A DNA stretch of 64,000 nt from Aurantiochytrium sp. KH105 (lineage: Eukaryota; Sar; Bigyra; Thraustochytrida; Thraustochytriidae), in assembly GCA_003116975.1 (NCBI GenBank), contig BGKB01000156.1, positions 92,847 through 156,846 on the forward strand, read 5' to 3'. The translations under genes were made by a program, and so were the position numbers. Positions 10,617 through 30,800 of the stretch are shown in pieces. The notes under the pieces are model-generated. The model saw only the letters and a list, made by a program, of their open reading frames with translations. It was not told the DNA's origin and did no database searches. The first letter of the stretch is position 1. Each line of letters opens with the position of its first letter.

Positions 10617-13600
10617 ATGAGCAGCAAGGCCAACTCGCGACGGGCAAGTCGACGAGGTCTGTTGCTGTCGCGAAGCAGCATTCTCGCGGGGCTGGCGCGA
10701 TTGCTCAACGAGAGCAGGGCAGACGTCGCACGCGAAGACGCAGAGGACGACAACGAAGAGGACACCGACGAGCTTGCCGGCACCCAGGAGACATCTCTTC
10801 GACTCGAGACACTGCAACTCGTTGCCCGCGACGACGGTGGCGTGATCAAGAGCCCGGATGATCTTCTTTCGCAGGTGCTCCAAGATCGAGAGCTCTGGAA
10901 TATCCTTCGCCGGAATCGTTCGCTTGAAGCATTGCACCTCGCTCGTAGCGTGCTCTCTGCCAACGTGACCGCGCAACTGTCAAAAACGCTGCGCGCAAGC
11001 CGTGGACCCGCCTCTGTTAATCTGGAGGGAGCTCAGCTAACCAGTGTGCGCGCCCTGTCATCGCTACTGCAAGACGCCCAGCGCGGTGCTGCGTGCCAAA
11101 GTTTAAATCTCGCCTCGGTGTACACCTCTGCAGGTCAGGCTCCCTTCAAGGTACTGTCTGGACGCGCTTCAACCGTTTGCGTTGGACCCGGTCGAACCCG
11201 CATCAATTTTCATGGAGCTTTTACGACCGTGGCTCTCAAGGAGATGGCAACCCTGCGGACCGGAAACCGCAGCTTTTATTACGAGGTCAACCTTGCTGGT
11301 TGGCCCTCCGAAGCCTCTTGGGCTGATATTCGTATTGGTTGGACCGACACCTGGTGGGTAGCAACTACATTCGAGGATGCCACGCGGTCAAAAGGCGGCG
11401 CTGGCGTCGGTGACAACCTCTATAGCTGGGCGTTCGATCCCTTTCGAGCCCGCGCCGTTGTGGACAATACGGAGGCCAGCTTCGGGGCGCACTGCAAAAC
11501 TGGAGACGTAATTGGCTGCTATGTCGATCTTAGCGCCAAAGTCATCCGATTCAGTGTCAATGGCGTGTGGGATCTGCCGTTTGGCACCGCTTTCCAAGAC
11601 TTCTCGCTCTGGAAAGGCATCGTTCCCGCTCTCACGGTCGCCTCGGCACGTCACTATGCCTCTTCAGTGGAGGTCAACCTCGGCCCGAACTTTGCTTATC
11701 CTCCAGACCGCGCAGCCGCACCAATTGCTGAATGGTTGCAACGCCAAAAAGACAGTCTCCTGCGCAGCGCACTCCAAAAAATGGCAGAAAGACGCACAAA
11801 TAGGAGCCTGCACTCTTTGCTGCTTTCGGGTCTCTCGTTCTTGCAGAATCGTCAGCGTCCGCACAGTGTCCGATATCTCTGCCAGGCCTTCCAAGGACTT
11901 CGGCATCTGGATCTCTCAAATTGCAAGCTTGGCGACGGTGGATGCGCATCGCTCTGCCGAGAGCTTTCAGACGGGCTCCCTGGTCTCCTCACACTGGATC
12001 TTTCGTCCAACGAGTTAACCTACAAAGGAGCGAAGAAACTTTCGAGAGCACTCTTGCACAGCGGTATCAAGTATCTCGATTTGTGCAGCAATCAGCTCGC
12101 TTTCACCGGAGATCGCGCCCGAGCGCTCGAGCAGGGTCCAGCTGCAGATGCCTCGGAACTGGAGCTCGAGTGGACATCCATCGTGGGCCCAGGCACTCAA
12201 CTTGCTGTAATTGACCTGTCATGGGCCGAAATTGACGCCATCTCAGCCTGTGCTCTCATGTCGAAGCTCGCCACCAACGATACAATACTAGGCCTCCGTC
12301 TTGATGGAAATCCGCTCACGGGACAGGTTCTTTCGTCCCTGGCCCAGATGCTTCGGGGAAACCGTACCTTGCTTCATCTCAGTTTGGTTTCCGCCTCGAT
12401 CTCAGGCGATTGGAACTTGCTTTCCCAGCCACTCTTTGACATCTCAGAACCAACATGCAGCGTTCTGCAGGCTCTCGATCTTTCGGGCAACCCGATATGC
12501 GCCGATGTCTTTGCAGATGTCGACGCTTTTCTCTCGGGCCAAAGTGCTCTCAGACGTCTCAGTGTCGCCAAGGTCGCACGGGATCATGATTTGCAACGCC
12601 AAAGATCAGCCAAGAAGAAAGCCGAAGCCGCACAGCGCCTGGTGCGAGCTCTGGCAACTTCCTTGCCCACTGTACAGCTTTCGCTAAGCATTGAATCATT
12701 CTCGCAGGCGCAAAGCTTGGGAAGCGCGCTTGGGACCCAAGCGGGGCTCGCTGTTAAACAGCTCGAGCTTGCAGGTACGGTGCCGTTGCTAGATACCGTG
12801 CTTCAATCTATTGCCGAGGACGCGCCTGCGGCTCTTTGCAGGCTAGCTGTCCGCGTGCAAGCGAGCTCCAACGATGATTCGCTTCCTTGGAAAGGACTCT
12901 GCGATGTGCTCGAGGCACTGCAGCTCGACGTTCTCCGCATTGAGGGCAGTGGGGACCACGATAGCCTATCAAGCGTGAACGCGTCTCGAGATCTTTTTGT
13001 GGAGAGTCTCGCACGAAGTGACACGCTTCACATTTTCAGTATTGCAAAGGCCTCCTCGACTCTGCGCATCATTTGGGAAGCTTTGCTCGACGCTTTCGCC
13101 GCCAGTTCGAGCCTCAAGCATGTGCGAATCGAGAATTGCAGCCTTCGAGCAGGCTCCATGGCTTTGCTCGCGCGTCTTGTCCGAGGTACGACGCCAATTT
13201 CATCAATTAAATTTGCACGAGGAAACGAAGCGTCTCGTGCCGCGGAGAGCCTCATTCGTGACTTGCTGAAGGTCTCGACGAGAGCGCGCCCTCGCCGCTG
13301 CCGCGAGCTCCTCTTACACGGAAGATACCCGGATCTTGATGCTTTTAGACTTACAGACTTGGGGTTGGGTTTGGTCGCCCGTGATCTTCCTCTGCTTGGC
13401 GCCCTCCTGAGCTGGGTCAGACATGAGGTTCTCGGCCACAGTCGCGGTCCGCTCGAGATAACAAACACGCTTGTCTTGGACGGCTCCAACGCAGGGAGAG
13501 TGGAGCAAGATTCTGGTCGCCTCGATCTCGAGCAAAACACGATGGAAGAACCTCTGGTGCTTGGTGAAGATCTCGTCTTCCAAGGCCAACTGACTATTTC

Positions 13601-15920
13601 GAACTGGCGGAGCGACATCAGATTCGCTCCTCCGTTACAGGGTATGCGCCGCTCCTGGCGTGCCATTGGCCTCCATTTTATTGACTGTCCTCAGTTGACT
13701 AGTCTTCCACGTGGTCTCGAGGTCGCAAGCTTGGTCGTCCGAGGCTGCCCTGCGCTCACCACTCTGCCGGAAGATCTTCGCGTGTGGACGATGCTCGTTT
13801 TGGAGAATGTCCCAAAGCTCGAAAGGCTCCCTCTTCAGATTGACGTGGATCACCTCGAAGTTCGAAATTGCGAAGCTCTAGAAAGTGTCATTCACGTTCG
13901 CGTTCGCGATACTCTAGTCCTTTCCCAGTGCGACAAGCTGACGAGTTTGCCGGGAGGCATGCATCTGAACAAGCTTGAGATTACAGAATGCTGGAATTTG
14001 CGCTCGAACGTCGAGACCGCGCATGTCCAAAAGCAACTTTGCTTGCGCTCGCTGCCTGTGCGCTGTCTCTGTGAGGGTCTTGAGCTGCAAGACTGCTTGT
14101 TGGACGATTGTCCTCAGCTGGAGACCCTCCCTCCTGATCTGGAGGTCTACGGATCTTTCAAGTTGATTCGTTGTCCACTCGTGGAAGCCGTGCCAAGTGG
14201 CGTGCGCGCAGAAATTATTTCGCTCGAGTCTCTTACTGCGCTTACGGGAGTGCGTACCGGTGTCTCGGCACAGCATAAACTTCTTGTCGCAGACTGCCCT
14301 GCGTTGGGGTCGCTGCCTGAAACCATTTTGAGCGCAGGGCGGCAGCACGTGGAAATTCGAAGTTCGGGTCTCCAAGCCTTTCCCTGTGCGCCCGAGCTCT
14401 TGTCCTGTCACATAATGCAATGCGCCGAGTTGCTCGAGTTGCCGTCATCGTTACGAGTCAAATTTGAGCTTCGCCTCGAGCAGTGCGGTATTCTGCAATT
14501 GCCTGAGTCTCTTCAAGTTGGCAGTCTGCGCGTCTTTCAGTGCCTTAACTTGATGGAAATCCCTCCTCGTGCCTATTGCCGAGGTAACATGATCATCGAC
14601 TCGTGTCCGAGTGTGGAAGAGCTGCCGGACGTCCTCAATTTGCGCGGCTCATTGGGCCTTCGCAAGCTGCCTTCGTTGCGAAGTCTGCCCGACAATGTGC
14701 GCGCTCACGCCAGAATCGATATCCGGGATTGCACGCACCTGGAAAAACTTTCGGAGCGCATGCGTGCTGCTAGCCTCGTGCTTGAAGATAATCCCGAGCT
14801 ATGGCTCATTCCGGAATCCACGCGGATTGCGTCAAGCATTCAAACTCGAAACTGCAGCTCACTTCACAGCATCCCAGACAGTGTGCTGAGGAACGTTCAG
14901 CGCGTTGTCGTGGACGAGGCATCCCCGATCGGCCGCGATGCAGACTTGGAGTTCCTCGAGGCCCGATGCGCCGCATTGCAGACGAAGTTGTACATTAATG
15001 TGACTGACGATGAGGACGAGGATCGAGACACGGAACATGAGCGATTGGATGAGGCTGTGGCGTATTGGGAGACGCACGCTGGCGTGACACCCGAGCTCGA
15101 GCTGGAAAGCGAGCTGGACAGCTTTTACCACTCGTCCGTTCTTGGTTTTCTGAATCTGCTGCGTCGAAGCGCAGAGTTTCGACGGCCTGATCTTCGTGAG
15201 GGCCTAGCTCAGCGGGTCGTGGAGCTTTTGCGCATTCTCAATGAGAACCCTGATGGTGTCCGTGAAGACTTGCTGTCACGCATTTCGGATGCCATCGATT
15301 CATGTTCGGACAAGCCTATCTGGGCTCTCAATGACATGTATTTGATGACACTTATTATCAGGGCCCGAGGTAACCGGGACGCTCTTCGCTCGCTTGGGAA
15401 GCGCGTTATGCGACTGCAAATCGTACGCGATCAGGCAGCACAGCATCCTGGCGCCGATCAAGACGACGTGTGTGTATACCTTCGTTTTGAGATTTCGCTG
15501 CGCGAGTCGCTCGACTTGCCCGTGTCCTCGGTCGCTATGCTCTATCGTACCTTTGTGACGGTGACCCCTGAGGAGATTGAGAAGGCTCGCCAGGCAGCGC
15601 TTGGGGTGAGCCAAGCCGAATTCGAGACGTGGCTTGGTGCTTGGCCGGAGTGGGAGCGGCAATTGCGAGCAGAGGCAGCAGCGACAATTCGATACGAGAC
15701 CCTGGATGCGGAAGTCCTCTCCCGGCGCTCGAGTCTCCGAGCCTTTAGCGGCGAACCGATGGATCATCCCGTTATGGTGGCGCGACGCGGGCCTTGGGAA
15801 TTATCCGAGTTGCTCGATCGCTGGGTCGTGACAGGACTCGACTTTGCCAATGTGGCCCTGGAACCTTCTGAGTTTATCCGCAGCCTGCACCGTGCCTTGC
15901 CGTACGAAACCCGAAAATGA
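10617..15920 (+). CDS. SPRY-LRR protein with C-terminal NEL (IpaH/SspH-type) E3 ubiquitin-ligase domain
   Basis: 1767 residues in one exon from the ATG at 10617; an in-frame ATG at 10374 would add 81. A SPRY/B30.2 domain (about 195-355) shows FYYEVN, IRIGW, GDVIGCYVDL and FSVNGVW. RNase-inhibitor-type LRRs follow (about 420-600, e.g. LRHLDLSNCKLGDGG) and reappear further on. Residues about 1025-1430 are a long series of short LRRs with an LPxxL core (SLPRGLEV, TLPEDLRV), the subtype of bacterial IpaH/SspH/YopM proteins. The C-terminus (about 1450-1760) matches the NEL E3 fold: catalytic-type Cys1563 in the C-x-D motif CSDK followed by ALNDM, then ESLDLPVSSVAMLY, VTPEEIEKA and FETWLGAWPEWERQL. 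NEL enzymes take ubiquitin on Cys and pass it to substrate lysines; the LRRs choose the target. Function here is inferred. Acquisition of the C-terminal half from bacteria is likely, but codon use looks native. Confidence 0.85.
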   Translation: MSSKANSRRASRRGLLLSRSSILAGLARLLNESRADVAREDAEDDNEEDTDELAGTQETSLRLETLQLVARDDGGVIKSPDDLLSQVLQDRELWNILRRNRSLEALHLARSVLSANVTAQLSKTLRASRGPASVNLEGAQLTSVRALSSLLQDAQRGAACQSLNLASVYTSAGQAPFKVLSGRASTVCVGPGRTRINFHGAFTTVALKEMATLRTGNRSFYYEVNLAGWPSEASWADIRIGWTDTWWVATTFEDATRSKGGAGVGDNLYSWAFDPFRARAVVDNTEASFGAHCKTGDVIGCYVDLSAKVIRFSVNGVWDLPFGTAFQDFSLWKGIVPALTVASARHYASSVEVNLGPNFAYPPDRAAAPIAEWLQRQKDSLLRSALQKMAERRTNRSLHSLLLSGLSFLQNRQRPHSVRYLCQAFQGLRHLDLSNCKLGDGGCASLCRELSDGLPGLLTLDLSSNELTYKGAKKLSRALLHSGIKYLDLCSNQLAFTGDRARALEQGPAADASELELEWTSIVGPGTQLAVIDLSWAEIDAISACALMSKLATNDTILGLRLDGNPLTGQVLSSLAQMLRGNRTLLHLSLVSASISGDWNLLSQPLFDISEPTCSVLQALDLSGNPICADVFADVDAFLSGQSALRRLSVAKVARDHDLQRQRSAKKKAEAAQRLVRALATSLPTVQLSLSIESFSQAQSLGSALGTQAGLAVKQLELAGTVPLLDTVLQSIAEDAPAALCRLAVRVQASSNDDSLPWKGLCDVLEALQLDVLRIEGSGDHDSLSSVNASRDLFVESLARSDTLHIFSIAKASSTLRIIWEALLDAFAASSSLKHVRIENCSLRAGSMALLARLVRGTTPISSIKFARGNEASRAAESLIRDLLKVSTRARPRRCRELLLHGRYPDLDAFRLTDLGLGLVARDLPLLGALLSWVRHEVLGHSRGPLEITNTLVLDGSNAGRVEQDSGRLDLEQNTMEEPLVLGEDLVFQGQLTISNWRSDIRFAPPLQGMRRSWRAIGLHFIDCPQLTSLPRGLEVASLVVRGCPALTTLPEDLRVWTMLVLENVPKLERLPLQIDVDHLEVRNCEALESVIHVRVRDTLVLSQCDKLTSLPGGMHLNKLEITECWNLRSNVETAHVQKQLCLRSLPVRCLCEGLELQDCLLDDCPQLETLPPDLEVYGSFKLIRCPLVEAVPSGVRAEIISLESLTALTGVRTGVSAQHKLLVADCPALGSLPETILSAGRQHVEIRSSGLQAFPCAPELLSCHIMQCAELLELPSSLRVKFELRLEQCGILQLPESLQVGSLRVFQCLNLMEIPPRAYCRGNMIIDSCPSVEELPDVLNLRGSLGLRKLPSLRSLPDNVRAHARIDIRDCTHLEKLSERMRAASLVLEDNPELWLIPESTRIASSIQTRNCSSLHSIPDSVLRNVQRVVVDEASPIGRDADLEFLEARCAALQTKLYINVTDDEDEDRDTEHERLDEAVAYWETHAGVTPELELESELDSFYHSSVLGFLNLLRRSAEFRRPDLREGLAQRVVELLRILNENPDGVREDLLSRISDAIDSCSDKPIWALNDMYLMTLIIRARGNRDALRSLGKRVMRLQIVRDQAAQHPGADQDDVCVYLRFEISLRESLDLPVSSVAMLYRTFVTVTPEEIEKARQAALGVSQAEFETWLGAWPEWERQLRAEAAATIRYETLDAEVLSRRSSLRAFSGEPMDHPVMVARRGPWELSELLDRWVVTGLDFANVALEPSEFIRSLHRALPYETRK

Positions 15921-22936: not shown

Positions 22937-23540
22937 GTAGGCAATGCAATGCAATGCAATGCAGTGCAATGCAATGCCAAAAAAGCAGGTAAAAAAATAA
23001 GTAAGGCGACCTCGTGACTTATTATGCACACCTCATGAGGCTTTTGATTCCATTCTTCGTTACATTCCATCTATCTGTAGTTGCTACTTGCATTACTTGC
23101 AGTATGTCAGCTTTTTCCCCAGCTTTTTGCTGATGTTTCCGCCAAAGCAGACGACTATGAATCTGCTTTACCCCCGCCCCTTGCGGCAGACAAGAGAGGT
23201 TACTTTCAAGCTAAATGTCTGGCACCCTGTCTTTTCGGGCAGCCTGTTCTGGTATTTTCTTGATGTATTCGCCAAAAAATAATTCTTTGACATGTGAATC
23301 TGGTTCGAGAAATTTGCACAAAAATATAGGGCCTACAAGAATGCAATGCTTGGGTCCAGATGTACTTGATAGCTACATCACTGTTCTGCCACAATCTGAG
23401 GAAAAAGCTGAGGAATGAATGAATGACTGAATGAACGAACGAGCCGTTTCCAGAAGGACGAACGGACCGACACTTCTACTGAAACGAGAAAGAAGCATGC
23501 AAGAAAAAGGGTAAATTAGTTCATAACGATGGAGCTATCT
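22937..23540. other. Convergent intergenic region
   Basis: 3' flanks of delta-COP (+) and thiolase (-). A (GCAAT)n pentanucleotide run lies right after the delta-COP stop (about 22941-22977). The rest is AT-richer unique sequence with no gene seen. Confidence 0.55.
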
Positions 23541-24746
23541 TCAAGCGCAGTTCTCGAGAATGATGGCAATGCCCTGGCCGCCGCCAATGCAGGCGCTGCC
23601 AATGGCGTACTTCTTGCCCGGGTTGCGGGCCAGGTCGTAGGCGAGGGTGCCCATGATACGCGAGCCCGAGGCACCGGTCGGGTGACCCTGGGCGATGGCA
23701 CCACCCTTGGACTGGACGCCCTCCTTCTCGAGGTCAAAGCCAAGGTCCTTCTGGCAGGCAAGGAACTGCGAAGCGAATGCCTCGTTGATCTCCAGAAAGT
23801 CCATGTCGTTGATCGAGAGGTTTGCGCGGCGAAGAGCCTCCTGGATGGCGGGGACGGGGCCAATGCCCATGATCTCAGGGGGCACACCAGCCACGGCGTA
23901 GGACACAATTCGCGCCATGGGCTTGAGGTTGTGCTTCTTGACAGCCTCGGCCGAGGCGACAATTACGGCGCCGGCACCGTCCGAGATACCGGAGGCGTTA
24001 CCAGCGGAGACAGAGCCACCCTTCTTGAAGAGAGGCTTGAGCTTCTGGAGCGACTCGATCGTGGTCTGCGGGCGCGGGTGCTCGTCGACCTCAAAGTCGA
24101 TCTCGCCCTTCTTGCGATCCTTGATCTTGATGGGGACAATCTCATCCTTGAAGAGACCGGCCTCCTGGGCGGCGGCCCACTTTTGCTGCGAGCGCAGCGC
24201 AAAGGCGTCGGCGTCCTCCTTGGAGATGTCGTACTTCTCGGCAAGGTTCTCGGCGGTGATGGCCATCGGGCAGCCCACATGCTTGTCCTGGAGGCCCTCC
24301 CAGAGGGAGTCGACCATGGGCGGGTTCACGCCCAGAGGGGAGCCGAAGCGGACGCCGTGCACCAGGTAAGGGGCCTGGGACATGCTCTCGGCACCGCCGG
24401 TGAGGACAACCTCGGCGTCGCCGACGAGAATGTCCTGCACGCCGTTGACGATGGACTGAAAACCGGATCCGCAGAGGCGGTTGACCGTCAGGGCGGGCAC
24501 GTCGATGGGGACGCCAGCCTTGAGCGCGACATGGCGAGCCAGGTAGGCAACGTCGGTCGTGGTCTGCTGGACATTACCCACGTGCACGGTGTCGATGATC
24601 TCCGCGCTCGGGAGCTGCGCGATGGCGCCCTTGGCGGCCTCCACGCCGAGCTGCACGGCGGAGAGGTGCTTAAGGCTTCCGCCGAAGGTGCCGAAAGCCG
24701 TCCGCTTGGCGGCGACGATGAAGATCTCCTTGCCCACGGCGCTCAT
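23541..24746 (-). CDS. ERG10: Acetyl-CoA C-acetyltransferase (biosynthetic thiolase)
   Basis: 401 residues from the ATG at 24746 (MSAVGKEIFIVAAKRTAFG). The enzyme condenses two acetyl-CoA to acetoacetyl-CoA, the entry step of the mevalonate pathway. All thiolase active-site elements are present: nucleophile Cys92 (NRLCGSGFQS), His355 (GHPTGASGSR) and Cys386 (CIGGGQG). Length matches type II thiolases of about 390-410 residues. No mitochondrial leader or peroxisomal SKL-type tail is seen (it ends ILENCA), so a cytosolic location is inferred. The frame upstream of 24746 has no ATG. Confidence 0.93.
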   Translation of the reverse strand: MSAVGKEIFIVAAKRTAFGTFGGSLKHLSAVQLGVEAAKGAIAQLPSAEIIDTVHVGNVQQTTTDVAYLARHVALKAGVPIDVPALTVNRLCGSGFQSIVNGVQDILVGDAEVVLTGGAESMSQAPYLVHGVRFGSPLGVNPPMVDSLWEGLQDKHVGCPMAITAENLAEKYDISKEDADAFALRSQQKWAAAQEAGLFKDEIVPIKIKDRKKGEIDFEVDEHPRPQTTIESLQKLKPLFKKGGSVSAGNASGISDGAGAVIVASAEAVKKHNLKPMARIVSYAVAGVPPEIMGIGPVPAIQEALRRANLSINDMDFLEINEAFASQFLACQKDLGFDLEKEGVQSKGGAIAQGHPTGASGSRIMGTLAYDLARNPGKKYAIGSACIGGGQGIAIILENCA

Positions 24747-25993
24747 CTTGCCTGACTTGGCGTGCTGTGTGCGTTTGCCTCCGCGGACTTTCGACCCTTT
24801 TGTGAAGATCAATCAACTGCCGCTCTGCTCCGGCTGCTCAAGAAACATGATGGATTCGCAGTCATGTCAACGAACGAACGAGCGATCGAACGAACGAACC
24901 GTCAGTCAAATCAATCCAGTCTGAAGAACAAGAACAACAACAACAAGAAGAACTCCCGCCGCTTCGTCCCGGTGCACCTGGCCGTGCCGTGCGAGGCGCG
25001 CGCGCTCAGCCTCTCCTCTCCGCCGGTCGATGCGCGTCTGTCTTTCCGTCTGTCTGCCTGCTGTCTGTCGGAGGGGAGGCGGGAGGGAGAGTCGCATCGA
25101 CTTACCTTGGATTGCGGTTTGCCGACGGGGTCGCGAGACATGCCCGCTGCTCTCTCCTCATGCCCGCTGCTCTCTCCTTCCCTCCTTCCTGCCCTTTCTT
25201 TCCCTCCTGCCTTGCTTCCTTTACCTTACCATGCCGCTTCCTTCTCTGCCTGCAGTGTCACCGCATTGCATTACACCGGCCGCGGGCCAGCAAGGTGGAT
25301 CGCACTGCCCTGCGCTGCACTGCGCTGCGCCGCGCTGCACTGCGCTGCGCTGCACCGCCTTGCACCGCGGCGCGTCGCAGCACATCGCATCGCATAGCGC
25401 TGCGCGACGTGAACAGAGCCTGCATCTCGGCCGGTACAGCGCGCGCGCGCGTGCGTGCCGAGGGCGGTACTCCTCGCTCGCCTCGACTCGCCGCTGCTGC
25501 TGCTCCAGCTCCTGCTCCCGCTGACAAACAGGCAGCCAGATGGACAGACAGCGACTGCAGTCTGAGGGTGAAATGGAAATCCCGCCACCACGGCACTGCA
25601 CTGCACCGCAATCCCATGCCAGGCCAGGGACTGCGATGCGCTGCAATCAATGCAAGGCGACCCCGTGCAATGCCACGCGGTAATGCAATGCAGCCATGCA
25701 ATGCGCGCTTCCCATTTCATTGCGCGCTCGTTGCTCCGCAGAGGCGCATTTCAGGCGGAGTCCGACCCTGGCCGGAGGGCTGGCACGTCCGGAACGTCTG
25801 GAGGCGCCAGGGCCGCGGGAAGCTCGGGAGCGTCTGGAAGCTCGGGAGCTCCGGGGAGGCTGGGAAGCGACGCAGCGAAGGCGTGGGCGGGAGAGCGCGA
25901 GGAAGACGCAGACGACCAACCGCGCGCGCGCGGCCGGGGACGCGGCGGCGGGCAGCGGCGAGCGCGGCGCGAGGGCGGGCGCAGAAGGGGAGC
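24747..25993. other. Divergent intergenic region
   Basis: Shared upstream region of thiolase (-) and the TFIIS-N gene (+). AACGA runs (24870-24900), CT-rich tracts (25140-25250), and a GCTGC/GCACTGC-rich tract (25300-25400, 25590-25710). Frames remain open by composition only. No gene seen. Confidence 0.5.
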
Positions 25994-27418
25994 ATGGCGC
26001 TGGAGCTGCTGGAGCGGAAGAAGGCGCTCGTGCGCGCCGTCGAGGCCGAGGAACGCGCCGGCAAGGAGCTCCTCTCAGCGCTGCGCGAGCTCCGCGCACA
26101 GGTGGAGGCCGCGCAGCAGCAGCAGCAGCAGCAGCACACGGGGGGAGGCGGGCACAATGACCACGTCGCCTTGGAGAGCCTGCTCGGCAGCCTTTTGAAT
26201 AACAAATTGGGCGCCGCCGCGCTGCGAGCCGACGTCCAGCACGAATGTAAAAAGGTGCTCGACGGGCTCAAAGCAGGCGCGTCAAAATCTCAGCCAGCTG
26301 ACACTGCTTCTGCGAGTGCCTCTGCGTCTGCTCCGTCTGCAGCTACTACTCCAGCGGGCCCCACTTCTTCCGGTGCCACGAAACCTCCGGTGAATGGTAC
26401 TGCAAATTCCGCCCAAGGAAGCAATGCTGCAGTCGTAAAGCAAGAAGAACCAGCCGTGAAACAAGAGGCAGCAACAAAGCAAGACTCGGCCGTGAAACAA
26501 GAGGCAGCAACAAACAAAGACCCAGTCGTGAAGCAAGAATCAGTCGTGAAACAAGAGCCTGCAGCAAAACGAGAGCCACGACCCCGCCTCACCGGCCTTG
26601 GAGTGAGCATGCTCAAGTTTGACGATTGTGTGCGCCAGCTCCAGGAAGAGGCCGCCGCCGAAGAGTTCCACAACATGATCGTCCTCATGTCACGCCTTCG
26701 CAACGTCAAGCGCATTACTATGGAGGACATGAAGCGGACCAATGCAGGAAAGATTCTCGGCAGGATCGCCAGAAAGTGTGCAGACGAGAAGACCCGCAAT
26801 GCCGCAAATGCTACTACAGAAATTGTAAGGAAGCGTTTGCAAGAGCAAATGAAGGCAGAAAAGGCAGAGTTTTCGAAAACGGCAAAGGCAGAAGCTGTGA
26901 AACCTACAAAGGAAGACGCAGAAAAACGCCTTTCTGCATCCGCGGCTCGCGCTGAGAAGCGAAAGCGCGAATTCCAAGAATCCAAAAAGGCAAATCAGCC
27001 CCGCCTGCTCAATCCCAATGAGCCTGGTATCCGCAAGCCGCTGCAAGGATCAAAGGCCACCGACGCAAGGTCCTCCTCGGGCTCCAATGCAGACAAGGAA
27101 CGCAAACGAAAGTCTGACCGAAGAGAAGCCAAAAAGGAAGCCAAAAAGGAGAAGAAAAAGAAAAAGAGCAAAAAGGAAAAGCGCCGACGAAACAGTGAGG
27201 ACGAGGATGAAAGCGAGGCGGAGAGCGATGACGACGACGATGATGGCCAAGACGACTTTGCCAGTTGGATGAAGGCGCGGCGCGCGCGTCTCTCCGAGGC
27301 ACGGGAGTACAGCGAGCGCGAGGAAAAGATTAGTGCAATGATTGGAGAAGAGGAGGATTTGGAAGCCGAGCTTGAGGAGCGAAGGGCGCGCCTCAAGAAG
27401 AAGAAGAAGGCTGCATGA
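25994..27418 (+). CDS. TFIIS N-terminal (LW)-domain nuclear protein
   Basis: 474 residues from the ATG at 25994. An N-terminal helical segment with a Gln run (about 42-48) is followed by an Ala/Ser/Pro-rich linker and a series of VKQE-type repeats (about 150-195). Residues about 205-290 fit the helical TFIIS N-terminal/LW fold (MIVLMSRLRNVKRITMEDMK, then TNAGKILGRIARKC), used by elongation factors to dock onto partner proteins. The C-terminal half is strongly basic (KKEKKKKKSKKEKRRR), then acidic, with a terminal coiled coil. This fits a chromatin or transcription-elongation factor (IWS1/TFIIS/LEDGF-like). No TFIIS zinc ribbon is present, so it is not TFIIS itself. Function is inferred from the domain. 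Confidence 0.75.
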   Translation: MALELLERKKALVRAVEAEERAGKELLSALRELRAQVEAAQQQQQQQHTGGGGHNDHVALESLLGSLLNNKLGAAALRADVQHECKKVLDGLKAGASKSQPADTASASASASAPSAATTPAGPTSSGATKPPVNGTANSAQGSNAAVVKQEEPAVKQEAATKQDSAVKQEAATNKDPVVKQESVVKQEPAAKREPRPRLTGLGVSMLKFDDCVRQLQEEAAAEEFHNMIVLMSRLRNVKRITMEDMKRTNAGKILGRIARKCADEKTRNAANATTEIVRKRLQEQMKAEKAEFSKTAKAEAVKPTKEDAEKRLSASAARAEKRKREFQESKKANQPRLLNPNEPGIRKPLQGSKATDARSSSGSNADKERKRKSDRREAKKEAKKEKKKKKSKKEKRRRNSEDEDESEAESDDDDDDGQDDFASWMKARRARLSEAREYSEREEKISAMIGEEEDLEAELEERRARLKKKKKAA

Positions 27419-27879
27419 CCGTCAGGTCTTTCCATCGTCAAAAACAACTTGCCCCTCATCGCGAGGAACCCCGTGTGCTCCCCGTTCTCCTCCATTCACG
27501 CTTTCCTTTCAATCTCATTCTCGGGAACGTCTGCAGAAACCAAACAAACACAGGAACTTGAAGTGCAACATACACCACCACGACGGCCACCATCAAGAAC
27601 CACAAGGCGGACCGCGTGACGCCATCCGCCAGCGGACCGCGCGGAAACAAGAACAAAAATCCTTATTTGCTAATCGTCGTAGAACGAACGGCCAAAGCAA
27701 CACTGAGTAAACGCACTCTTTGTAATTTCATGGTGTTGCCTACTTATATAGTTGATGCATGTTTTTTTCTTCTCATCTCTGCGCGCTGTTTCCCCCCACA
27801 AACGCACAGCCTTCACTTATGAGTTGTCTCAGTCATCTCGGGATCTCTTTTCGAACTCGCTCGACCTTGTCCTACTCGC
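27419..27879. other. Convergent intergenic region
   Basis: 3' flanks of the TFIIS-N gene (+) and Pumilio gene (-). Nothing recognisable was seen in it. Confidence 0.55.
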
Positions 27880-30800
27880 TTACGCAATGCGTCGTTTGGC
27901 GAGAAAGGAGAGAATGTGTCTCCCGTGCGCGTATTGCATGAGTACCTCGCTCTGCGCGTCGATGGCAGCCGCGATGCGAACACGATCAGACTTGCCCGAG
28001 ATCTCAAAGGCTCGCTGCAAAACAAAGTTTGCATAAGGATCCTTCATCAAATTGAGGAGGACCCAGTCCGGGGCATCGAGAATCTCGCGCACAATCTCGT
28101 TCGCTTGCGATGACGTGCCTGTCAGAAGACATTGCTCAACGAGGTGTGAGCCGAACTTGTGCTGCGCCAGATCAACGCACCGCGATGACACAAAGGACTG
28201 AATTCGGTCTGCTTGCGCCTGCTGACCAAATTGCAAAATGTGCTGCAAAATAAAATTCCCGTGCTGGTCCAACGCCAAGCGCTCATAGTCCTTTTCCACA
28301 GCGTCCACAATGGAGCGTACGCACGACGAGCGCTCGCGATCGCAATCAGCAAGTGCTCGTTGTACGAGCCTGCACGCGTTCGGATCCACCGTCATGCTTT
28401 CGACCTCGCTCTCGACTAGTTTCTCTACCGTATCAATCAACACTTGGCATCGCGCGCGCAGCTCGCTGCTTTCACTTCGAATCAGGGACGTGAGAATCTG
28501 CCCATGGTTGTTGCTACTAGCACTGCTGCTAGTGCTGTTGCCACTCGCACTGCTACCACTTGCGCTGAGAGCACCACCACTTGCGCTCTGCGCGTGCGAA
28601 CCTGTGCCCCTCTGGGGACTGCTTCGATGCATGCCCGTGCCTCGCGCCAGGGTTGCAGGTTTCGGCCCACGGCCAGGACGAAGCGTGAGATCTGGGCTCA
28701 GGTCATGTTGGAGGACGAGTAGCGCCTTTTGAAGAACATGCGAGGCATGCGAGTCGAGAGCCGCATCGCGGAGAATGTCCGAAGCCAGCATGATTTCCTC
28801 CATGAGTACGAGGCGATCCTCGGGGCTAGACAGTTCGAGGACACGCTGCACAACGCGGCAGCCGTGCGGGTGCTTGCTCAGCTCCAGGATGCTGCCTCGC
28901 ATCAATCTCGCAACCGTGTCTCGCTGGCTTTGTTCTGCATGTTTCAAAAAGACTTGGATGACATAGTTTCCAAAGAGATCCTGAGCAATCTCAAGGGCGT
29001 CAAGCATGAGCTCGTCCATGAGCGCCTTTTGGTCCTGCGCAAAGGACCGTGGCATGAGCTGCTGCAGGTACCTTGATCCGAGCGAGTCTTGCGCAAATTC
29101 GACCACGTGCGACTGAAGCTCGCGTACGGACGGGCGGGAGCTTTTTTGCCTGAAAGCCGAAAGCACCGCCGATGCAGGCGTTAAGCTCATTTCACGCGAG
29201 CCCTTGGCCGCAAAACCGCGGCGATTATCCCTGCTCGCACCCGTGTCGATGGCACTCGTGCTGCTGCTGCTGCTGGTACTGCTGCTGTTGCTGTTTGCGC
29301 TGGTGGGTGCACAGCCGGCCGAGTTGCCACGGGAACGAGATCCACTCTTTCGTCCCAAGGAGTCGCCACTTTCGCGACGTGAACGTCCTGACTGTGGAGG
29401 CTGAGAAAACTGCTGCTGCTGATATGATGCAGACACAGGAAAAGGGAAAGGCGGCATGGGCATGCCCATGGGCATCGAAAGTGGCATGCCATAGGCAGGT
29501 GGCATCATCGGGAAGCCCATCGGAGGCTGGCCCATATGCATGCCAGGAGCTGCTCCCGCATTTGCCGCCCCTGCAAGAGGGCCAGCACTATTCATGCCCC
29601 CCATGTTCATCCCCATATTGGCATTTGCAGCCAAAGCTGCTTGCTGTTGCAATAGCATCATCTGTTGCATGTACATTGCAAAGTGCTGCTGCATCGCCTG
29701 CTGCATCGCCTGCTGCTGATCCGACATCATCGGGACACCAAACGCATCCCAGGCGCCTTGCTGTGGCGACTCTGTGCCACAGGCTTGCGGCGCGCTGGTC
29801 GCCCCCGGCCCCTGGCCCGTATACGTGATGCCTGCAGAGTCTCTACCCATGCTTGAGGAAGGGTCTGGGTGATGGGACATCGACATCGGCGGCGGCAAAG
29901 GTGATGACGGCGTAGAACCCAAGTCGGACGAGAACCCAGGCGGAACAGGTGAGGAAGGCGAGAGCATCGGGGATGCGGAGTCGATGGACCCGATTTCGCT
30001 TGCATTCGACACCGCGCGGCCTCGGCGAAATTGCGCTGCAGAGGTGAGCATCTCAACTTCGCTTGAGGTATCGACCTCGAGGGTGGAGCCACAAAGGCTC
30101 TGGACAGCACCATCGTCTTTGGACTCTTCAGTTTCCCCTGGCTCGGGGGTGCGGCGGTCAAAGAGCATTTCGGGGAACGCGCGCCGAACGAGCGTCGCAG
30201 AGTTGACACGACGAAGACTCATTTCCTGGTGGTCCTCCCCAGAACCCGAAGCGCGCTCGGGTGAGCAGGGGCCACTCGCCCTGCCGTTCCTTCTCTTGCC
30301 TCGGAATGCTCCGCCACCCAGGCTTTCTGTACCCTCACCACAGTCCCTGAACTCGTCGACCTCCTCGTCATCGTCATCGTCTTCATCGTAGTTGTCAGCA
30401 ACCTCTCTCATGGCGGGAAGCGTCGTCCACTCTGGCGGGTGCTCGTATGCCCCAGCTTCCCGTCTGAGACGGAGATGATCAGGTCCGCCTCGGAGGGTGT
30501 TTCCTGAGAGCGAGTTTGGAAAGTTGGCAAAGGTGGCTCGACGAAAGAGTCTCTTTTTGTTGGCTTCGGACGGCGAGTGAGAATGATGCATACCCGATGC
30601 GCCAAGTGGGGCATCTAACGCGGTCTCGGTATTTCTGGCAGCTGCGACAATGGCCTCGGCAACGTCGTCATCCTGAAAGAAACTTGCCGATTTCTTGGGT
30701 AAGCGAGGGGTCTGTCCCGTGGTTGTCAGGAAGTCAAGCAGGGTGGACGATGCAAGCTCTTGCGGAATGTCATTACAAACGCTAGAAACGTTGTCGAACA

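Follow-up and report, generated by a model that had tools for sequence, protein, structure and literature searches.

A NEL-type ubiquitin-ligase domain with a predicted U-box-like tail in a nuclear gene family of a thraustochytrid

The stretch of DNA analysed here (the window) comprises 64,000 nucleotides, positions 92,847 to 156,846 of contig BGKB01000156.1 from the thraustochytrid Aurantiochytrium sp. KH105. On its forward strand lies a gene whose protein carries a SPRY domain, leucine-rich repeats (LRRs), a second array of LRR-like repeats, a NEL domain of the type found in the IpaH, SspH and SlrP ubiquitin ligases (E3s), and a short C-terminal tail (Table 1). An initial annotation, made from the letters alone, had described the gene as a bacterial NEL domain captured by a eukaryote. 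The open frame, its length of 1767 residues and the NEL motifs quoted there were all present in the sequence, and the SPRY and LRR parts upstream of NEL gave Pfam matches over cut-off. The range given there, 14950-15890, takes in NEL together with the greater part of the tail, which had been overlooked. The start at 10617 agrees with the locus on the other haplotype (L024), where the frame opens just 32 codons ahead of the first ATG, and also with the length of a public protein that is 99.4% identical to the window protein over its whole length. This public protein is entered as 'Ryanodine receptor [Hondaea fermentalgiana]', H. fermentalgiana being a thraustochytrid, and the name probably derives from the SPRY domain.

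Table 1. Features of the NEL gene and its product, in window coordinates
Feature	Residues	Position	Strand	Evidence
Uninterrupted open frame, SPRY-LRR-LRR-NEL-tail protein	1767 in total	10617..15920	+	open frame, Pfam matches, public counterpart
SPRY domain	220-355	11274..11681	+	PF00622, E 2.1e-12, 47.6 bits (cut-off 26.3)
Leucine-rich repeats	428-476	11898..12044	+	PF13516, 37 bits (cut-off 23.4); PF00560, 28.8 bits (cut-off 20.6)
Leu-Pro (LP)-step repeat array, period 20-21 residues, N-terminal of NEL	about 1027-1353	13695..14675	+	pattern-based
NEL catalytic domain (Pfam boundaries)	1507-1689	15135..15683	+	PF14496, E 2.2e-26; PDB sequence and fold matches
Codon TGT of the predicted catalytic Cys	1563	15303..15305	+	Cys-x-Asp (CxD) motif; Asp1565 codon at 15309-15311
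U-box-like C-terminal tail	5-61 of the tail model	15732..15902	+	fold prediction; 0/42 bacterial NEL rows reach the tail

When the window protein was compared with the Pfam NEL model, it scored 93.1 bits against a cut-off of 24. Its C-terminal 367 residues matched 12 distinct PDB sequences at E ≤ 1, all of them IpaH-type, SlrP, SspH1 or SspH2 (best E 2.1e-10), and Cys1563 was aligned on the Cys-x-Asp stretch of the best-matching IpaH chain. Hence, the motifs listed in the initial annotation are real NEL motifs. The structural match to IpaH/SspH was also found: for an AlphaFold2 model (mean predicted local distance difference test score 83.6), the five best Foldseek matches were IpaH3, SspH1, SlrP, SspH2 and IpaH, with E from 1.9e-5 to 6e-4. 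In the reciprocal direction, a hidden Markov model (HMM) built from the thraustochytrid NELs recovered every one of the 76 bacterial loci searched for NEL, at E ≤ 1e-5, five (Salmonella, Edwardsiella) of 81 having been excluded beforehand. The window protein, with a match far beyond chance, is confirmed to contain a genuine NEL domain. The NCBI model IpaH_Shig gave 34.9 bits, far under its cut-off of 550. In an alignment of 66 NELs, equivalents of Cys1563 and Asp1565 were present in all 24 eukaryotic-type and all 42 bacterial rows, so that the predicted catalytic cysteine is conserved in relatives of the window protein.

The gene is not alone. The genome (76 Mb in 367 contigs) has at least 32 NEL places, and all 32 that were listed exceeded the PF14496 cut-off and had no stop codon within the match. 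These pair up as 16 loci on two haplotypes. Ten pairs had 95.5-98.5% protein identity; five further pairs, from shorter pieces, showed 96.5-100% identity to an already known locus, and the pair L136/L142, found in shorter pieces only, was 98.4% identical over 307 residues. The CxD motif was present in 16 of 16 loci. The ratio of nonsynonymous to synonymous substitution rates (dN/dS) for NEL plus tail, calculated between haplotypes for 10 of the 16 pairs, was 0.03-0.19 in every one and 0.06 for the window gene, and the loci are therefore taken to encode maintained proteins. Thus, the gene first described on its own is indeed a eukaryotic gene with a NEL domain, but one of a 16-locus family. Pfam detected SPRY in two members, the window gene and L011, and a SAM domain in L016; beyond L011 and the window gene, a Pfam LRR family passed its cut-off solely in L025.

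On one haplotype, two NEL loci of opposite orientation (C31:323992-324546, minus strand; C31:328652-329179, plus strand) are separated by about 4 kb, and the other haplotype has the equivalent pair (C93:135042-135569, minus; C93:139789-140343, plus), which suggests a local inverted duplication. Public Hondaea models with tubulin-NEL and kinase/TPR-NEL fusions were treated as gene-model joins, since the public proteins P0011 and P0010 match the genome frames (loci L009/L010 and L013/L014, respectively) over residues 1-910 only and 646-1641 only.

The array nearer to NEL, on its N-terminal side, was examined with motif scans. The window protein gave eight LP-step matches, spaced by 20, 21, 40, 60, 104, 20 and 41 residues, and contained four pairs of LP steps lying 20 or 21 residues apart, as against at most two in 300 shuffles. 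LP-step units 19-23 residues apart were seen in 10 of 15 loci of the family (L032 being partial). In nine of nine bacterial NEL proteins checked, 3-16 such pairs occurred (at most two in 300 shuffles). Since this period is shared, the repeats may have arrived together with NEL; the stated fusion of NEL to the protist's 'own' LRR is right as to an LRR upstream and questionable as to its ownership. It may be noted that a stricter Hondaea motif fitted the nine bacterial proteins 0-1 times each, so layout and period are alike and common descent of the repeats is not thereby established.

The tail, of about 60 residues, follows the NEL domain in 24 of 24 eukaryotic-type NELs and in none of the 42 bacterial NELs compared. 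A U-box-like fold is predicted for it: Prp19 U-boxes were among its closest fold matches, and predicted fold and register matched those of Prp19, E4B and LubX. Several RING domains aligned with it as well, so the predicted fold class is U-box/RING and not U-box alone. The initial annotation had spoken of an E3 unrelated to the RING, HECT and RBR types. For the whole protein this is doubtful, because the U-box-like fold predicted for the conserved tail belongs to the RING class.

We took the first hydrophobic residue of loop 1 and the proline of loop 2 to be the E2-contact residues of a U-box. All 23 tails have L, F, V or I at the position matching the former; the loop-2 proline was present in none of the 23. 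Residues W35, T38, G39 and D41 of the tail were kept in 21-22 of 23. Two points limit the U-box assignment: no single test was significant, and the Pfam U-box model matched none of the 23 tails (one row having one mistyped letter). The PF04564 places in the genome lie elsewhere, not at NEL tails. Locus L017 (C97/C200) has a degenerate tail, in which the motif's G and P are missing, and an intact CxD.

In the bacterial enzymes, as set out in the excerpts used from PMC12506513 and PMC9320238, ubiquitin passes from the ubiquitin-charged E2 (E2~Ub) onto the NEL cysteine and then onward, a C-terminal 'thumb' being the binding site for E2-Ub and the LRR that for the target. The gene, its family, the conserved active site and the purifying selection are established, and the folds of NEL and tail are predicted; what we infer is that the proteins act as ligases, that the repeats or SPRY bind targets, and that the tail has the role given below. 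We put at roughly 0.6 the probability that the family consists of endogenous Cys-type E3s built on a NEL core, with LRR-like or SPRY-LRR parts for recognition and a U-box-like accessory for the E2. Target binding would fall to the upstream modules, which are SPRY plus LRR in the window gene and in one paralogue, a SAM domain in another, and LRR-like repeats in most members. The NEL core would accept ubiquitin from E2~Ub onto Cys1563, aided by Asp1565, and hand it to the target. The tail, which stands directly after the part of NEL that binds E2~Ub in the bacterial enzymes, would dock or orient the E2, or would dimerize as the Prp19 U-box does. A narrower form of this proposal is more tentative: the U-box would bring E2~Ub and the NEL cysteine would take the ubiquitin, like an independently assembled RBR ligase, in a core repeatedly fused to LRR, SPRY and SAM.

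The proteins could also be active Cys-type E3s in which the tail is a structural or dimerization cap with no part in E2 binding, which we consider rather unlikely. The missing loop-2 proline and the negative Pfam result fit such a cap, as does the fact that bacterial NELs function without a tail of this kind; among the Prp19 U-boxes that match its fold, entry 2bay is titled a U-box dimer. Against it stand the uniformly hydrophobic position at the E2 contact of U-boxes and the near-invariant W35, T38, G39 and D41, which are kept as would be expected of a working surface.

Relatives of the endogenous family were sought among public proteins, the 7986 best candidates, selected by length and shared words, being scored. 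At least 14 proteins were returned: the near-identical public one, four others from Hondaea, eight from metagenomes, and P0015. In the comparisons, the NEL loci called Hondaea are loci of the window's own thraustochytrid genome. P0003, P0004, P0005 and P0007 combine SPRY with NEL; in the tree, the window gene was joined by P0003 and P0004, and L011 by P0007. If these proteins come from other thraustochytrids, the SPRY-NEL layout is shared beyond this species. P0015 (1533 residues, on a 28 kb contig, named after ipaH4.5 by its source) shared 28% identity with the query along 76% of the query's length and had the same tail. Its naming style presumably points to a dinoflagellate record; the protein is deeply diverged and possibly a contaminant itself. 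A control set of 14 genomes gave no NEL, but also no U-box; these genomes are probably prokaryotic, and the control is uninformative on other eukaryotes.

In a set of 398 genomes from the phylum to which a Herbaspirillum belongs, with up to five candidates scored per genome, at least nine had a match to the Hondaea HMM, and none of the 15 matches passed model position 232 of 306. A plasmid scan yielded one record, from Serratia symbiotica. When viral contigs were scanned with the window NEL in view of a viral origin, 21 pattern matches and no confirmed relative were obtained.

The tree was built from 24 eukaryotic-type rows (15 of the 16 Hondaea loci and nine proteins) and 42 bacterial rows chosen from 121 (24 of 81 loci, 11 of 15 matches, 7 of 25 proteins). 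A single branch separated the two groups with support 100/98, and rebuilds without long rows gave 100/99 and 100/100. The tree is unrooted, and all three runs warned of long branches meeting, so the eukaryotic group may still nest inside the bacterial one. Of the claim of capture, the NEL domain in a eukaryotic gene stands; the capture itself would be one reading of an unrooted tree with two clean groups. The bacterial NELs came from rhizobia, Burkholderiales-type and enterobacterial genera. Since NEL is spread over so many bacterial genera, transfer from bacteria to the protist lineage would be the likelier direction. One bacterial row, L043, on contig NZ_VCCH02000177.1 titled Mycobacterium sp. 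KBS0706, has its NEL inside the rhizobial clade; this is likely a mislabelled or mixed assembly.

The reverse history, in which NEL arose in eukaryotes and was acquired by bacteria as an effector domain, is improbable. It would agree with two groups on either side of one supported branch, neither nested in the other, with the deep divergence on the eukaryotic side, and with the eukaryotic nature of ubiquitin, the substrate of known NELs in the cited portion of PMC9320238. The breadth of the bacterial distribution speaks against it, as does the fact that Hondaea is the only named eukaryotic source, next to the eight unplaced metagenome proteins and P0015.

Loss of catalysis, with the NEL fold serving as a binding scaffold and no ubiquitin being transferred, is a little more improbable again. 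It could draw on three residues near the active site that differ from the commonest bacterial ones: the residue after CxD was K (K1566) in 22 of 24 eukaryotic-type rows as against R in 35 of 42 bacterial rows, A1583 stands against V in 28 of 42, and R1584 against E in 30 of 42. The invariant Cys and Asp and the purifying selection argue for retained activity, and at R1549, D1616, L1600 and M1641 the two groups have the same majority residue as the window protein. W1676 and W1679 were largely shared across the 66 rows.

It is very improbable that the proteins are weapons secreted by the protist against prey, hosts or competitors. The bacterial NELs treated in the text consulted from the review PMC9320238 do translocate into host cells; the N-terminus of the window protein, MSSKANSRRASRRG, shows no obvious signal peptide by eye.

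Like the IpaH, SspH and SlrP effectors, the proposed E3 family has the NEL profile, the CxD motif, the predicted helical fold, and leucine-rich repeats on the N-terminal side. It differs from them in being encoded by nuclear eukaryotic genes, in the SPRY or SAM upstream in some members, in the U-box-like tail, and in the K after CxD. The window protein is not a bacterium-made injected type III effector, given its nuclear gene among eukaryotic genes and an IpaH_Shig score under cut-off. Unlike the U-boxes of Prp19, E4B and LubX, the tail has no Pfam match and no loop-2 proline, and sits behind a Cys-type E3 core. With the RBR ligases the likeness goes no further than the idea of uniting a RING-like part with a catalytic Cys in a single protein (as in the part of PMC9320238 drawn upon); the core here is NEL, and Pfam found no RBR domain in the window protein.

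The NEL catalytic domain is described, in the extract available of PMC12506513, as bacterial and without structural homology to eukaryotic E3s. Among the literature matches listed, most subscription papers lying outside their scope, there was no report of a eukaryotic NEL family and no counterpart of the NEL plus U-box-like arrangement. The sole eukaryotic claim, as far as the accessible sections of PMC7145615 go, was that of a NEL-like segment in NLR-like genes of the alga Klebsormidium; that segment matches an LRR-type superfamily (SSF52075) and is there termed homologous to NEL, with no catalytic Cys described.

If the proposal is true, the 16-locus NEL family adds one more endogenous E3 class to the ubiquitin system; thraustochytrids would have another build of transthiolating E3, and NEL would be a domain of eukaryotic biology and not a bacterial weapon alone. 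With the core fused to LRR, SPRY and SAM, it would be a receptor-like ligase family. It would offer NEL enzymes from outside the bacterial effectors for work on mechanism, a natural test of how NEL meets E2~Ub, and a case for asking in which direction NEL moved between bacteria and eukaryotes.

The neighboring frames encode SPX-VTC, WW/B-box, PQ-loop, AP-complex medium chain, Pumilio-type, ubiquitin hydrolase and ABC transporter proteins, two of the nine frames being without a family. Bacterial contamination or an assembly artefact, an idea that the treatment of NEL as bacterial in the literature found would invite, was ruled out for practical purposes by these eukaryotic neighbors, the presence of the 16 loci on each haplotype and on contigs as long as 1.1 Mb, the GC content at third codon positions (0.59 for the NEL gene vs 0.60-0.78 in seven neighbors), and the near-identical public Hondaea protein, in agreement with the nuclear location first assigned to the gene. 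Elsewhere in the window, two long open frames at 23529-24752 and 24989-27415 (both plus strand; 408 and 809 residues) matched no Pfam family at E ≤ 0.001, and a strong AT skew of 0.269 was observed at 26001-28000.
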